Below, piece after piece: positions 1 to 5,204 of a stretch of 28,188 nucleotides of DNA (position 1 is the stretch's first letter; the number at the start of each line of letters is the position of its first letter). Source of the stretch: a virus; the IMG/VR virus record IMGVR_UViG_3300009365_003814, positions 1 to 28,188 of that record; one strand, given 5' to 3'. The translations under genes and the position numbers were made by a program. A model generated the notes under the pieces. That model had not been told where the DNA came from and ran no database searches. It saw only the letters and a program-made list of their open reading frames with translations.

Positions 1-108
1 GCTTGGGAAGATGAGCGCAATAAAAAAGCTAAAACCATTGATTGGCAATTTACCACTCAAGATGCACGTATCAAATTGAAACGACTATACCCATCTTATC
101 ATGCTTGA
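1..108 (+). CDS. IS630-type transposase, C-terminal fragment (partial at window edge)
   Basis: The first 35 codons are open from the window edge to a TGA at 106-108 and end with a peptide containing DWQFTTQDARIKLKRLYP. This strongly resembles the extreme C-terminus of IS630/Tc1-mariner-type transposases, the DDE enzymes that move IS630 elements into TA targets. Only the tail is visible, so no catalytic residue can be checked. The coding end lies about 15 bases before a phage-like reading frame that itself looks decapitated, which suggests the element inserted into that gene. The terminal inverted repeat should lie between 109 and about 145, but I cannot define it without the other end. The family assignment is from recall of the C-terminal motif. 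Confidence 0.65.
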   Translation, partial: AWEDERNKKAKTIDWQFTTQDARIKLKRLYPSYHA

Positions 109-123
109 CAAGCTACTACTTTG

Positions 124-915
124 ATGACGATGTACGGTTCATTCAAGGATCCGGGGACGGAAAGCCGCTGTATGACCTTCGATTTGGCGGAGAAGGAATC
201 GCTAGAACTGGACAGAGCGGGCATTGAGCCTGGGTACACGCCACCTGAGATGGATAAAGAAGCTCAGGTACTGCGCAATATGCTACTTAATTGGCGTTTG
301 CGCAACTGGCGACCTTCATTTGAGCTTTCGGCGGAGCTGCGCAAAGAATACAAGTTGACTGACCCGTTAGTTTCACCACGTATCAACCAAATTATGCGGC
401 CGTTGAAGGTTTTGGCGGTGATCGAGGAAGATCAGCAATTATTTGATGATTTGAAGATGCTGGGACAGGCAAACTATGAAGATGAGCTGAACCGCAGGGC
501 GGGAAGCTTCGATGCGATCATCTTCCGGGCTGTGGTGGCTGCGGCGGAAGATAAGGACTATGAAAAGTATGTGTACGAGGGCAAGGCGGGGAAGTATGGC
601 CAGGGGCGATACATTTTGTATAAGGATCTGGCGGTGGTGGCCAATGAGATCTTGGATAAAGAAAATCTGCAAGAGGGTGAAGAGCGCACAGAGGGGGGCG
701 TGAAGAGCAATACGATTGGCACGATCTGCAGGGATAGTTTCAGGATGCCGGTCCACAGGACGGCTTCGGGTTGGGCGGTGGTGCTAGATCCAGGGAAGAT
801 CGAGATTGGAAAGCTGCGCTTTGGGATGGATCGGGATGACCCTTCGACGACGCCCTTCGACGACGCTCAGGGCTCCGCTCAGGATGTGGTGCAAGCGGAG
901 ATGGAGTTGGAATGA
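124..915 (+). CDS. Replication ATPase/primase-helicase-like protein, N-terminally truncated
   Basis: 263 residues from the ATG at 124; TTG 121 and ATG 130 are alternatives and none has a clear ribosome site. Near the start is KDPGTESRC (residues 8-16), followed by an EA..LRN.LL.WR.RNWRP stretch. From memory this resembles the region just after the ATPase core in phage and plasmid AAA+/SF3-like replication proteins, with the ESRC arginine in a sensor or finger position. The C-terminus (about 195-235, VKSNTIG...GWAVVLD) looks like a winged-helix DNA-binding tail. No Walker A or B is present, so the ATPase core is missing, consistent with disruption by the adjoining IS630 element. The gene ends next to the candidate origin at 1021-1282, which fits a replication role. 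A repeat-derived insertion sits near the C-terminus (840-883). Family assignment is tentative and the fragment is probably non-functional. Confidence 0.5.
   Translation: MTMYGSFKDPGTESRCMTFDLAEKESLELDRAGIEPGYTPPEMDKEAQVLRNMLLNWRLRNWRPSFELSAELRKEYKLTDPLVSPRINQIMRPLKVLAVIEEDQQLFDDLKMLGQANYEDELNRRAGSFDAIIFRAVVAAAEDKDYEKYVYEGKAGKYGQGRYILYKDLAVVANEILDKENLQEGEERTEGGVKSNTIGTICRDSFRMPVHRTASGWAVVLDPGKIEIGKLRFGMDRDDPSTTPFDDAQGSAQDVVQAEMELE
840..883 (+). repeat. In-frame palindromic repeat encoding PFDDAQGSAQ
   Basis: CCCTTCGACGACG occurs at 840-852 and again at 853-865, where it continues into GCTCAGGG and a second CTCAGG. The outer CCCT/AGGG halves of 853-872 are inverted repeats. The unit sits in frame near the end of the upstream gene and encodes PFDDAQGSAQD. 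The same unit recurs in the portal gene at 13503-13524, so this is a dispersed short repeat tolerated as a peptide insertion. Confidence 0.7.
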
Positions 916-1020
916 TGCTATTGATGGGTGCACCTACTCGCACATTCATGCCCTTCGCAATGCTTCGGGCGTGGAATGGCTCGTGGTGCGATTATTTGCA
1001 GCTTTGCTGTGCAAAAAATC

Positions 1021-1282
1021 GAAAAATGAACTTTGTGAAGCGAAATGAACCATTTTTGGGGGAATCGGGGGCCATATTTTATTTTTGGCCTAAAAATAAA
1101 ATATGGGGGGGTCTGGAACGGGGTTTTGGGTTCATTTTAATTCATTTGGTTCATTTTTTAGTTTATGCCGTATTTAGGTCTAAAAAAAATGAACTATATG
1201 AACTTATATGTAGCAAGGGTATTTATGGCGTTGATTTTAGATGCGCTTTGTTTGGTAAGAAAAAAATGAAGCAAAAATGAAC
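1021..1282. repeat. AAATGAAC iteron cluster: candidate origin or operator array
   Basis: This fills most of the 420-base stretch between genes (916-1335). Exact AAATGAAC copies lie on the + strand at 1024-1031, 1043-1050, 1187-1194 and 1275-1282. Exact copies on the - strand (GTTCATTT) lie at 1130-1137 and 1149-1156. One-mismatch copies are at 1140-1147, 1196-1203 and 1264-1271. The left pair and the right pair both have 19-base periodicity, and other neighbouring copies are 9-11 bases apart, so they would face the same side of the helix. The two pairs are arranged nearly symmetrically about the inverted repeat at 1072-1106. The layout resembles an iteron replication origin beside a replication gene, but a repressor operator array is equally possible. 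No gene is supported here. Confidence 0.65.
1072..1106. repeat. Perfect 15-bp inverted repeat, AT-rich
   Basis: CCATATTTTATTTTT at 1072-1086 is exactly complementary to AAAAATAAAATATGG at 1092-1106, with GGCCT between. It lies at the centre of the iteron dyad. It could melt as an unwinding element or extrude as a cruciform. A terminator is less likely because the downstream side is G-rich rather than T-rich. Confidence 0.8.
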
Positions 1283-1335
1283 TTTTGTGTAGTTTGGAAG
1301 CGAAAATCTACATTTTTAGGATTTGGAGGCACCAA

Positions 1336-2067
1336 ATGAAAAGAGTATTCAATCGAAAAAACCTGTACCGCTTGATCTATTTGTGCCTTTTGGGGGTGTT
1401 GACGCCGCACACCAAGTGGGCTTTCAGCAAGTTCGAGCCCGAGATGGACGAATGGGCGGCCTGGCTTCTGGCTATCTTCTTTGAAGCTGTGATTGCTGTA
1501 CTGACTGAAGCTGTTGCCGACCGCATCAAGAAGACGCCGAACTTCACGGCGGGATGGGTGTGGCTGCGGAAGTTCAACCACCAGGTTCTAGCGAACCCGT
1601 TTTTGTGGATGCTTACGCTGGCGGTGTTCGTGAGTACGCTGGCGAACCTGGCCCATGCGGTGGAGTTCAGGAGCGATATGGTGATCTTCGATGTTTATCA
1701 GATCCCTTCGGCTTTGTATGAAGTTTCATTCGGTGCGATTCTGCCGATTACATCGTTGGTGTATGCGGTGGTGCTGGCAAATACGGACGATGACCCGATG
1801 GCGAACCCTGAGTTGGTGAGAGCGAATGAGACGATACGGGGTTTGCGGGCCGAGGTTCGGGAAGAGAAGAAAAAGGTTCGGGAACTTACGGAAAGAGTTC
1901 GCCCGGAATTCGCTGAGCTTGTGAATGAAGCGGCTCAGGTTCGGATCAATGCGGCAAAGGTTCTGTGGCCTGAGCTTCCGGGTAAGTATTTGGCGGTGGT
2001 AGCGGATAGTTCGCCTGGTTATGTGTCGGAAGTATTGGGAAATGCCAATGGAACTGGCTCTGAGTAA
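1336..2067 (+). CDS. Four-helix membrane protein with coiled coil and C-terminal HTH-like end
   Basis: 243 residues from the ATG at 1336, chosen because GGAGG (1325-1329) sits six bases upstream; an open TTG extension to 1285 is not supported. Hydrophobic segments lie at about 11-25, 40-60, 88-108 and 128-148. A charged, heptad-like stretch follows (about 160-205). The C-terminus (about 215-236, with VADSSPGYVSEVLG) resembles the recognition half of a helix-turn-helix. The layout (membrane bundle plus HTH tail) recalls DUF2637/SpdB-like proteins of mobile elements, but I do not recognise the family with certainty. Its position directly after the iteron cluster suggests it may be controlled from there or help attach the replicon to the membrane. 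That role is inference. Confidence 0.7.
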   Translation: MKRVFNRKNLYRLIYLCLLGVLTPHTKWAFSKFEPEMDEWAAWLLAIFFEAVIAVLTEAVADRIKKTPNFTAGWVWLRKFNHQVLANPFLWMLTLAVFVSTLANLAHAVEFRSDMVIFDVYQIPSALYEVSFGAILPITSLVYAVVLANTDDDPMANPELVRANETIRGLRAEVREEKKKVRELTERVRPEFAELVNEAAQVRINAAKVLWPELPGKYLAVVADSSPGYVSEVLGNANGTGSE

Positions 2068-2195
2068 TAGTCTAGATACCCCTGAAACGCTTCCTTGCGC
2101 CCCGGTAAAGTGGGAAAGCATGGGATATAGGGACACGAGAGGAGTAGGGGAGTGGTGGAAGTAGATGATGGTGAGATGCGGACGGTGAGATTTCT

Positions 2196-2450
2196 ATGTT
2201 GATGCAGTTTGATTTCGTTTCAAGAGTGTTGAAGAAAAAAAAGGGAGAGCCGCAGAGACGTTGCTGGAATTGTTTACATTGGGATCGAGCGTTTCCAGGT
2301 GCTGAGTGGGCGCCGTGCAGTTTTCATTCTTTATTGGTGGAGAATATGCGAGAAGGTGAAGCTGTGCGGTTGCTGCGCACCAATCGATTGGATGTCTGTG
2401 AAGATCATTATTGTGAACGGGATGCAGAGGTTGTCAATGTACGAGAATAA
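2196..2450 (+). CDS. Small Cys/His-rich putative zinc-binding protein
   Basis: 84 residues. CWNC (near residue 23), CSFH (near 41) and CEDHYC (near 68) give clustered Cys/His pairs typical of a small zinc-stabilised fold. The central WDRAFPGAEWAPCSFHS stretch is distinctive but I cannot assign a family. The start is ATG 2196 with a weak GGTGAG upstream; ATG 2202 is possible. It overlaps the next gene by 14 bases, so the two are probably translated together. The 128 bases upstream are purine-rich and contain a very short frame (ATG 2165 to TGA 2188) that I do not call. Confidence 0.6.
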   Translation: MLMQFDFVSRVLKKKKGEPQRRCWNCLHWDRAFPGAEWAPCSFHSLLVENMREGEAVRLLRTNRLDVCEDHYCERDAEVVNVRE

Positions 2451-3123
2451 TTTCGCATTCGATAGTGGATGGCAGTTGTTTGGCAGGATGATTGGAACCT
2501 TCGTCTTTGTGATAGCGGGTTACTTGATTCCTGTGGAGCCGTGGGCCAGTGCGGCGCTCTTCTTTGGTGTGGGGTTGGGATTGTTCCTGATAATTGTTCC
2601 AGTTTTGAACTGGTACCAGGATGCCATGGTGCGAAGATTGAAGAAGCGCCGGGAAGCTATGGCGACGACAAAGGAATCACTGGTAATAGACCGAAAAATA
2701 TACCTTGAGCGGGAACGTCAATCGACCATTTCCAGGATTTCGAGCTTGGAAAGCCCACAATTACAATATGCCATCCGACAGGCTGAAGCATTGGATATTA
2801 TCGAGATCGAGGGGGGACGAGTGAGCTGGCGGATCAATGGAATGAGAATCCCGGTTCATTTTGCAGTGACGTGGTGGGAGGCGTATCAGCAGCGCGGTGG
2901 TGATCAACTGCCTGCGGATAGTGATTTTTCTCCGCCAGATCGAGATATCAAGCGGGAGTGGAATAAGACAATTATCACGGCTCTGGCGAAGTTAGGCGTG
3001 GCGAGACCGGCTGAGAGCCGTTATCCAGGCCGGTGGTTGGTTCGAGGCGAAGAGCAGCGCACGAAGGCATTGGAGCGTATTGGATTCTGGATGGCTTTGG
3101 GTATCGCGGAGAGAGATGAATGA
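2437..3123 (+). CDS. Two-helix membrane protein with soluble C-terminal domain
   Basis: 228 residues from ATG 2437, preceded by AGAGG at a good distance; the longer open frame to 2299 lies wholly over the previous gene and is rejected. Two hydrophobic segments (about 16-33 and 36-58) form an N-terminal hairpin, followed by a very basic stretch (VRRLKKRRE) that would stay cytoplasmic. The soluble remainder has a winged-helix flavour near residues 185-215 (IKREWNKTIITALAKLGVARP...GRWLVRG). I do not recognise the family. With the 1336-2067 gene this is the second membrane-anchored protein with a DNA-binding-like end in the early region. Its TGA forms the left edge of the junction element at 3125-3212. 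Confidence 0.65.
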   Translation: MYENNFAFDSGWQLFGRMIGTFVFVIAGYLIPVEPWASAALFFGVGLGLFLIIVPVLNWYQDAMVRRLKKRREAMATTKESLVIDRKIYLERERQSTISRISSLESPQLQYAIRQAEALDIIEIEGGRVSWRINGMRIPVHFAVTWWEAYQQRGGDQLPADSDFSPPDRDIKREWNKTIITALAKLGVARPAESRYPGRWLVRGEEQRTKALERIGFWMALGIAERDE

Positions 3124-3124
3124 A

Positions 3125-3212
3125 ACTCCACGGTCGCTTCGCCGGTTAGCACACGGCGATGCTCCCTGGAGTAAAAATCTGAGTTCGCCCTTTGGGCTCA
3201 CAGGAGATTTTT
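3125..3212 (+). promoter_or_regulatory. Tandem-hairpin gene-junction element (copy A) burying the RBS
   Basis: Hairpin 1: ACTCCA (3125-3130) pairs with TGGAGT (3167-3172). Inside it GCTTCGCCG (3136-3144) pairs with CGGCGATGC (3154-3162) with one mismatch. Hairpin 2: AAAAATCT (3173-3180) pairs with AGATTTTT (3205-3212), with an inner GCCC/GGGC. The AGGAG ribosome site (3202-3206) lies in the 3' side of hairpin 2, whose last base is directly before the ATG at 3213. The element starts one base after the upstream stop codon and fills the gap completely. It matches the architecture of the copies at 9700-9783 and 21746-21842. Confidence 0.7.
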
Positions 3213-3464
3213 ATGAACGTTGGAATGCTTTGGTTTGATAACGATAAGGGTGCTGACCTGGATGCGAAAGTGAAACGGGCAGCGGATTATTACTCGAAGA
3301 AGTATGGAAAAGCGCCGAATTTGTGCTTTGTGAATCCGGGGATGGTGGTCAAGAGCGGTCAGATGGTAGCCGAAAGTGTTGAGCTGCGGACTTCGCAATC
3401 ATTGCTGCCAAATCACTTTTGGATGGGCGTTGCTGAGGTAGAAGTCGAGTGTCCGGCGAAATAG
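3213..3464 (+). CDS. Small conserved-looking protein (MNVGMLWFDND), function unknown
   Basis: 83 residues from ATG 3213, with AGGAG at 3202-3206; an extension to TTG 3192 would run through the hairpin and is rejected. The N-terminus MNVGMLWFDND and the central RAADYYSKKYGKAPNLCFVNP look like a compact alpha/beta fold. I have an impression of similar small proteins in Chloroflexota genomes but cannot name a family. No membrane segment or catalytic motif is visible. It overlaps the next gene by 16 bases and its translation start follows the RBS-sequestering hairpin of copy A. Confidence 0.65.
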   Translation: MNVGMLWFDNDKGADLDAKVKRAADYYSKKYGKAPNLCFVNPGMVVKSGQMVAESVELRTSQSLLPNHFWMGVAEVEVECPAK

Positions 3465-3922
3465 TACTGGAAAACACCTTTGGTTTGGATGGCATCAGGC
3501 GGCTGCACGTGATTTCAGGTGAGAAATTATCAGTCACATCGTTGGTGTATGCCGTGCCGGAATGGGCTGAATTGCGGGCTTATAAGGATGATGCCAACAT
3601 GCACCACCTGGAAGCGAGCTGGCCAGTGCGGGAAATCGTTGATTTCAAGGGAGAGATAACCAGTGCTGAGTTACAAGCAGCAAGCGGCATGACTGAGTAC
3701 GGTATTCGGGTCTTGCTATGGGCCTTGGATAAGGGTCAACGGGTGAGTGAGCAGATCGTAGATGCGGCGAAGGAGTATTTGAAACTGGTTGGTAATGAAG
3801 CGAAAACCTGTTTAATGAGAAATATTCCGAAGGGTGCAGAAGAATATCAATTGGTTGATGATGTGATGTTGATTGAAGCGGCGTGGGTCCCGGCGGGGTT
3901 TATTGCGCTCTTTGTGAGTTGA
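3449..3922 (+). CDS. Hypothetical protein, 157 aa
   Basis: The start is GTG 3449, with GAGG at 3435-3438 ten bases upstream; no in-frame ATG gives a sensible alternative. The protein is soluble, with an acidic alpha/beta N-terminal half. A helical middle (about residues 70-115) contains ITSAELQAASGMTEYGIRVLLWAL, which could be a helix-turn-helix but lacks a strong signature. No known family was recognised. It is arranged in a tight row with the 3213 gene (16-base overlap) and the 3926 gene (3-base gap), so all three are probably co-translated. Confidence 0.6.
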   Translation: MSGEIVLENTFGLDGIRRLHVISGEKLSVTSLVYAVPEWAELRAYKDDANMHHLEASWPVREIVDFKGEITSAELQAASGMTEYGIRVLLWALDKGQRVSEQIVDAAKEYLKLVGNEAKTCLMRNIPKGAEEYQLVDDVMLIEAAWVPAGFIALFVS

Positions 3923-3925
3923 TTT

Positions 3926-4189
3926 ATGTCAGGAAAAATACCGGATACTGAGAAACACGAAGAGATTGTGACTTATATAAAGAAGAATCCTGGAAGGGGT
4001 GCAGCGGAGATCTCTGATGCTCTTGAGCTGCATCCTAATGTTTTTAGGGCGATGCTGACGACGATCGAGGCGCGTGGGCGAGCATTATTTTACACGGAGC
4101 AGAACGGGAAAGGGCCTGGTTATTTTTTGTATCGGGAGTGGCCTGAGATCAGACTGTTTCAGAGTGATGTCGAGGTGGAATATGTCTAA
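3926..4189 (+). CDS. Small winged-helix DNA-binding protein
   Basis: 87 residues. Residues about 10-60 read as a winged helix: a helix (HEEIVTYIKKNPG), then GAAEISDALELHPNVFRAMLTTIEARGRALFY, with a recognition helix and a following beta wing (GKGPGYFLYREW). The size and fold fit a phage transcriptional regulator or an excisionase-like directionality factor, and it directly precedes the integrase with an 8-base overlap (ATGTCTAA). That neighbour makes control of integration a reasonable but unproven guess. The start is ATG 3926; the ribosome site is weak (GTGAG). Confidence 0.65.
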   Translation: MSGKIPDTEKHEEIVTYIKKNPGRGAAEISDALELHPNVFRAMLTTIEARGRALFYTEQNGKGPGYFLYREWPEIRLFQSDVEVEYV

Positions 4190-5204
4190 GAAGAAAAAAG
4201 AATCCCCTTTTATTCGGGAAGTTCGGGGCGCACTCCGGGTGCGCCATATGGCGTGGGGGACAGAGAAATCATATGTGCACTGGATAAGGCGTTTCATTAT
4301 GTATCAGAATTACCAGAGCAGAGATGAGATGAAGGTTGATGATATTGGACCATTTGTAACTATGCTGGCTGTAAAGGAAAACTTATCGCCAACCAGCCAG
4401 AATCAGGCTTTGAGTGCATTGATATTTATGTTCAAGAGAGTGTTGAAAGTTGAAGTGCCCCATCAGGATATTACCTGGGCGAGGAAGAAGAAGGTTTTGA
4501 AGGTGGTTTGCTCTCAAGGTGAGATTGCATCGATACTGCGTCATCTTCAAGGAGAGAAGCGGTTGGTTGTGCAGTTGCTCTATGGATGCGGGATGCGATT
4601 GATGGAAGCCTTACGGCTACGAGTGAAGGATCTTGATTTTTCTCAAGGTAAAGTGGCTGTATGGGATGCAAAGTCAACGGGAAATCGATATGTGACGCTT
4701 CCTAAAGATTTGCACGAACCACTGCAAGCTCACCTGGTCGGCGTGAAGTTGCAGCACGATGATGATTTGCTTCAAGGGTTTGGATCTGTAGAGTTGCCAT
4801 ATTCTTTGGCACGGAAATACAAGAATGCAGCATGGGAGTGGAAGTGGCAGTATGTGTTCCCTGCTTACAGGATCAGCGAGTGTCCAAGGACGGGAGCAAA
4901 ACGAAGGCATCATTTGTATCAAACTGGTATCCAGAAGGCTGTCAGGAGGGCTGCAAGGAAGGCGGAGATCCATAAACGGGTGACACCGCACACATTCCGG
5001 CACTGTTTCGCCACTCATTTGTTGATGGCGGGAGTGCCGTTGCCGGTGGTTTCAAAGGCTCTGGGACATAAGGATGTACGCACGACGATGGACCATTATT
5101 GTCATTTGGTCGATTTCGATGCGCCTAGTCCGTTGGAAGGTGTTCTGGAGCTGGAGAAGATGCTACCGGTAGATGTTTATAAACGCACAGAGTGCGCTCA
5201 ATAA
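4182..5204 (+). CDS. Tyrosine recombinase, integron-integrase (IntI)-like
   Basis: 340 residues from ATG 4182, preceded by GAGGTGG; the open frame back to 4074 only overlaps the previous gene. An N-terminal SAM-like core-binding domain (about 8-90, RHMAWGTEKSYVHWIRRFI) precedes the catalytic domain. The catalytic set is R139 (GCGMRLMEALRLR), K164, H270/R273 (HTFRHCFATH), H296 (LGH) and the nucleophile Y306 (TTMDHYCH). Residues about 190-245 (DDDLLQGFGSVELPYSLARKY...WEWKWQYVFP...RRHHL) match the extra segment that marks integron integrases rather than ordinary phage Int or XerC/D. In a phage it presumably mediates integration and excision. The spacers I checked nearby show no clear RYYYAAC/GTTRRRY attC pair. 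Confidence 0.92.
   Translation: MSKKKKESPFIREVRGALRVRHMAWGTEKSYVHWIRRFIMYQNYQSRDEMKVDDIGPFVTMLAVKENLSPTSQNQALSALIFMFKRVLKVEVPHQDITWARKKKVLKVVCSQGEIASILRHLQGEKRLVVQLLYGCGMRLMEALRLRVKDLDFSQGKVAVWDAKSTGNRYVTLPKDLHEPLQAHLVGVKLQHDDDLLQGFGSVELPYSLARKYKNAAWEWKWQYVFPAYRISECPRTGAKRRHHLYQTGIQKAVRRAARKAEIHKRVTPHTFRHCFATHLLMAGVPLPVVSKALGHKDVRTTMDHYCHLVDFDAPSPLEGVLELEKMLPVDVYKRTECAQ

Follow-up and report, generated by a model that had tools for sequence, protein, structure and literature searches.

Which function is served by a symmetric group of short repeats lying directly downstream of a replication gene in an uncultured tailed phage? We addressed this question in a stretch of viral DNA of 28,188 nucleotides (IMG/VR record IMGVR_UViG_3300009365_003814; hereafter the window), for which an earlier note, made from the sequence alone, had described an iteron dyad at 1021-1282 and had proposed a replication origin or a cooperative operator. 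Our analysis makes it very likely that positions 1027-1213, perhaps reaching to 1282, are an iteron replication origin of the P4/PICI kind, belonging to a tailed phage or prophage and bound by the adjacent helicase through a winged-helix-like domain at its C-terminus.

Anatomy of the repeat region

The coordinates given for the dyad all proved exact on re-checking. Exact copies of AAATGAAC lie at 1024, 1043, 1187 and 1275 on the plus strand and at 1130 and 1149 on the minus strand, and reflecting 1024 and 1043 about the centre at 1089 places them 2 bp from 1149 and 1130, in line with the claimed symmetry within two bases about the inverted repeat 1072-1106. The true repeated unit is TGAAC, and the array is longer than was seen before. 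Each half of the dyad consists of three TGAAC half-sites spaced 9 and then 10 bp apart, i.e., the previously noted 19-bp spacing is 9+10, and the degenerate third sites (TGAAG at 1036, ATTCA at 1140) had been missed. The three arrays (Table 1) read TGAAC-tttg-TGAAG-cgaaa-TGAAC (T1, plus strand), TGAAC-caaa-TGAAT-taaaa-TGAAC (T2, minus strand) and TGAAC-tata-TGAAC-ttata-TGTAG (T3, plus strand). For the later copies a phasing of about 10 bases had been proposed, which holds for 1190, 1199 and 1209 (TGTAG) but not for 1267 and 1278, spaced 11 bp; these last two half-sites may or may not belong to the origin.

The repeats are real and beyond chance. In the 28-kb window AAATGAAC occurs seven times against 1.42 in dinucleotide shuffles, none of 100 of which reached seven. 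Within the 600 bp around the helicase stop codon, TGAAC/GTTCA is found seven times (shuffle mean 1.05) and same-strand TGAAC pairs at 9, 10 or 19 bp three times (shuffle mean 0.004), and neither count was reached in any of 1000 shuffles. An open frame 122 aa long (912-1280) runs through the repeats; related loci keep the arrays and no reading frame. Searches of Rfam gave no match. On the plus strand, runs of G at 1057-1070 and 1105-1127 lie on either side of the AT-rich inverted repeat and could possibly form a G-quadruplex; a comparison of spacers found no such runs in the relatives.

Table 1. Features at the left end of the window.
Feature	Position	Strand	Basis or remark
End of IS630-family transposase gene, 35 codons + stop	1..108	+	tblastn, 66-74% identity to C-termini of plasmid-borne proteins
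3' part of replicative primase-helicase gene: end of ATPase and C-terminal winged-helix-like domain (about codons 130-235)	121..915	+	Homology, AlphaFold topology
Array T1, TGAAC-4-TGAAG-5-TGAAC (9/10 bp)	1027..1050	+	Sequence
T1-T2 spacer, 79 bp, AT 56% (window overall 49%), G-runs flanking inverted repeat	1051..1129	.	Sequence
Perfect 15-bp AT-rich inverted repeat, arms 1072-1086 / 1092-1106	1072..1106	.	Unconserved in relatives
Array T2, inverted, TGAAC-4-TGAAT-5-TGAAC	1130..1153	-	Sequence
T2-T3 spacer, 36 bp, 28/36 A/T	1154..1189	.	Sequence; place matches 39-bp P4 crr/ori spacers
Array T3, TGAAC-4-TGAAC-5-TGTAG	1190..1213	+	Third array also in L007, L012, L015, L018
Two extra half-sites, TGAAG 1267 and TGAAC 1278, 11 bp apart	1267..1282	+	
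Membrane-protein-like product, 243 aa	1336..2067	+	Gene after the putative origin; homologue in L003; not a constant neighbour of the dyad

The adjacent helicase gene and its interruption

The upstream neighbour, taken in the earlier note for a replication-ATPase-like remnant, is indeed the 3' part of a DnaG-type-primase/ATPase gene. Its product is 59% identical over 242 aa to a 651-aa protein of locus L012 and 34-41% identical to proteins of L007, L015 and L018; relatives begin with a DnaG-type zinc-ribbon/TOPRIM primase, and a Walker A motif was detected in four of five. Comparison of the ATPase part with Pfam, NCBIfam and PHROG matched no helicase family. For residues 130-235, AlphaFold predicted the order helix, strand, strand, helix, helix, hairpin, helix (pLDDT mostly 75-91), a fold that is compatible with a winged helix in a model of low to medium confidence. 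The best winged-helix match of this domain in Foldseek was weak (2co5_A, probability 0.63, E 0.62), and the whole L012 helicase, submitted as a low-confidence model, gave no meaningful match. Tandem 13-bp CCCTTCGACGACG and 8-bp CGCTCAGG repeats lie in frame inside the 3' end of the gene (840-883).

The window opens with the last 35 codons of an IS630-family transposase; in this record, therefore, an IS interrupts the helicase gene, and the contig starts within the element. Several of the tblastn matches to this tail are annotated as IS630 family transposase; a Pfam scan of the 35 aa gave no match. Owing to this interruption, the origin copy present here may have lost its activity or depend on helicase supplied in trans, and the record may represent a decayed prophage or one variant within a population.

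Related loci

Single-protein searches with the products of 121-915 and 1336-2067, the terminase and the integrase yielded no confirmed relatives, and blastn with positions 1-4500 gave no phage match. Relatives were recovered by DNA pattern and by alignment of the helicase family. A first scan of viral contigs for two copies of AAATGAAC plus one inverted copy returned L003 and L004; in L003, the spacing is exactly 19 bp in both halves, neither of which had been fixed by the scan. A second scan for TGAAC at a fixed 19 bp with a core of 56-86 bp returned nine stretches, seven of which (six independent loci) are located where a primase-helicase gene ends. These comprise the 651-aa homologue in L012, where the dyad starts 6 bp past the stop codon and a separate DnaG-type primase is encoded upstream; a 980-aa fused primase-helicase of the same family in L007; the C-terminus of a further family member in L008 (the same contig as L018); a 901-aa NrS-1-type primase in L006 and L009, which are mutually homologous, counted once, and carry the dyad within the last codons; and P4-family helicases in L003 and L011. 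L004 and L010 were set aside as dyads, the pattern being met there only as tandem repeats. At the contig end of L004 (14028-14160), seven tandem 19-bp units (TGAACACCACCGTTCATTT) follow right after a small winged-helix-like gene, with the same TGAAC and the same 19-bp period and no helicase seen alongside.

The mirrored control pattern CAAGT...ACTTG matched six stretches. Five of them are one homologous coding stretch, the sixth is a long and perfect inverted repeat located where a contig ends, and no helicase adjoins any of the six. The control, a single one, shows that patterns of this kind have no inherent tie to helicases; it gives no rate. In 11 whole viral records the triplet has ten matches, all at the loci described here, and the reversed triplet none. 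Array polarity is kept as well: of the 19 arrays with a score of 14/15 or more, 16 have the 9/10 order. A scan of genome_contigs for the ATGAAC dyad gave no matches.

The helicase-family alignment search added three records, L015, L016 and L017. In L015, T1 spans the stop codon and is followed by T2 and T3. The intact-gene relatives L012, L007, L008/L018 and L015, i.e., the phages in which an absence of the repeats would have spoken against an origin, carry the arrays at the same place. L016 and L017, which are 27% identical to the window fragment, are without triplets; five GTTAAC sites instead lie within 330 bp after the stop codon, with one elsewhere in 13.7 kb, and surround an imperfect inverted repeat of about 20 bp. 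Such a conserved place with an iteron that changes together with the initiator is expected if the initiator reads the iteron.

Because the motif itself served to find most of the other relatives, only L015, the pair L016/L017 (counted once) and P4 test the pattern independently, and selection accounts in part for the occurrence of TGAAC next to helicases of different types. TGAAC was not in excess downstream in ten further phages whose helicases are of the P4/D5 type or distantly related, so such arrays are no universal feature. As a conserved element, the perfect inverted repeat at the centre, on which the earlier note had laid stress, was rejected, since the relatives do not keep it. In L006 and L011 the T1-T2 spacer is not rich in AT (42% and 48%). 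GC skew is higher downstream of the dyad in all six loci compared, a difference confounded by gene orientation.

Other genes of the phage

The product of 1336-2067 is 28% identical (E 9e-25) to that of L003 2327-3268; both have membrane-like stretches and belong to two otherwise different phages, and the family reached no Pfam family above its cut-off. A recombinase of the integron-integrase family is encoded in tailed phages at 4182-5204 of the window, at 11977-12951 of L012 and at 2918-3916 of L026 (Virus Rctr41k). TIGR02249 scores are 358 bits for the window and 442 bits for L012 (cut-off 265), and the Rctr41k recombinase is 37% identical to that of the window.

Comparison with known origins

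The closest parallel is offered by P4, whose annotated type 1 origin repeats are TGTTCACC, the complement of GGTGAACA. Ori and crr of P4 share with the window the core TGAAC/GTTCA, spacings of 9-11 and 18 bp and inverted groups around spacers: the repeats are 10 and 11 bp apart in ori, and in crr, located just downstream of alpha, pairs 9 and 18 bp apart surround a spacer of 39 bp. The divergent T2/T3 spacer, counted on the printed sequences, measures 36 bp in the window and 38 bp in L015/L018, close to the 39 bp of P4, and about 68 bp in L012/L007. Like the arrays of the window, crr lies on the 3' side of the gene for a primase-helicase initiator, and P4 alpha likewise combines a TOPRIM-type primase with a C-terminal winged helix (PMC4234260), which in the window family is predicted. 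This winged helix is what alpha uses to bind the P4 repeats (PMC4234260, with reference to Ziegelin and Lanka 1995; Yeo 2002). In contrast to the window, P4 has two cis regions, in which paired repeats mostly take the place of 9/10 triplets, whereas the window phage encodes a terminase, a portal and tail proteins of its own. The window (AAATGAAC) does not share the G/A that flanks the core in P4; L006 (GGTGAACA) and L011 (TGAACAGT) are closer, and L011, the helicase of which is homologous to P4 alpha, carries TGAACAGT as in P4. Alignment of the window-family helicase with P4 alpha by hhalign gave a probability of 4% with the TOPRIM part alone aligned; the helicase parts are without detectable homology, and none was found to the L003 helicase either.

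PICI origins, located just 3' of rep, consist of two iteron sets around an AT-rich region (PMC6092414), and the C-terminal domain of SaPI/PICI Rep recognises the iterons (PMC7581432). Compared by layout, the window resembles them in the position directly 3' of the initiator gene and in two iteron sets around a spacer; unlike PICIs it carries a complete set of phage structural genes, among them terminase, portal, capsid- and tail-like genes. In SCCmec, the helicase Cch2 uses its C-terminal domain to bind short repeats that follow its operon (PMC7581432), as proposed here, but these are only three direct AAGTG iterons in a different element. The pRN1 plasmid and phage BIP-1 also have their origin directly 3' of a primase-helicase gene with a C-terminal winged helix (predicted in the window), but are free of iterons and need the stem-loop itself (PMC4234260).

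Alternative functions of the repeats

Of the two readings offered in the earlier note, the origin is supported and the operator explains the position less well. As an operator, the phased TGAAC arrays would be bound cooperatively by a phage regulator that controls either the helicase operon or the genes starting at 1336. Operators typically have inverted sites in helical phase, an operon follows the repeat region, and 3926-4189 encodes a small winged-helix-like protein (weak MarR-type match). Yet what stays constant beside the arrays is the 3' end of a gene for a primase-helicase, belonging to several families, while the downstream genes differ, and a crude scan of 880-1400, which may not suit the host, found no sigma-70-like promoter. 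Homologues of the 1336 and 3926 products are missing from most dyad loci (at E 1e-3, 1336 has one only in L003 and 3926 in none), which makes these products, suggested before as candidates, unlikely binders. Because the dyad accompanies the helicase and not 1336 or 3926, we consider a purely regulatory role improbable. Origins can regulate transcription too, so that the two functions are not exclusive.

Far less probable still is that the signal is an extruded dyad stem-loop, as proposed for pRN1 plasmids, whose stem-loop origin lies directly 3' of the replication gene (PMC4234260). Single-stranded DNA of 1020-1160 does fold better than 200 of 200 shuffles (z -5.0). However, the half-sites match between the arms at 57 of 60 positions and the linkers at only 17 of 36, the middle sites of L012 are out of register, and the third array, a direct repeat, would be unused by a hairpin; the mismatched linkers and the shifted L012 sites weaken this explanation. 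Nor is there a conserved base-paired stem of the pRN1 type in place of iterons, the linkers being unpaired and the registers different. Integrase arm-type sites (attP) are likewise short repeats, and in P4 such arm repeats occur near crr; with arrays 3-4 kb from the integrase gene in both the window and L012, and adjoining a helicase at every locus, this function is hardly credible.

Proposed mechanism and implications

What the sequences show is the anatomy of the repeats, their non-randomness, a core identical with that of the annotated P4 repeats, and a position, spacing and polarity kept beside the helicase gene; for the replication origin favoured here, we infer binding by the helicase C-terminus, ring loading, melting and replication direction. 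The winged-helix-like domain of the upstream helicase would bind the TGAAC half-sites, three per array and about one helical turn apart; oppositely oriented arrays could then load two helicase rings facing each other, a spacer would melt, and the linked DnaG-type primase would prime the new strands. A more speculative option, which we regard as rather unlikely, is that the TGAAC 9/10-bp triplets constitute a shared origin code read by at least three initiator types (DnaG-type primase/ATPase, P4/D5 family, NrS-1-type primase), via an exchanged C-terminal origin-binding domain or a common host factor.

Here a P4/PICI-like origin design is paired with a previously unnamed helicase family, so that a group of uncultured tailed phages gains a probable initiator together with its probable origin. 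The sites, being short and regular, lend themselves to direct gel-shift and plasmid-replication tests. The iteron plan that was called unique to PICIs (PMC6092414) is also found, built from P4-like half-sites, in phages that have a complete structural module. If different initiators truly share TGAAC, origin-binding domains may swap between replication systems.
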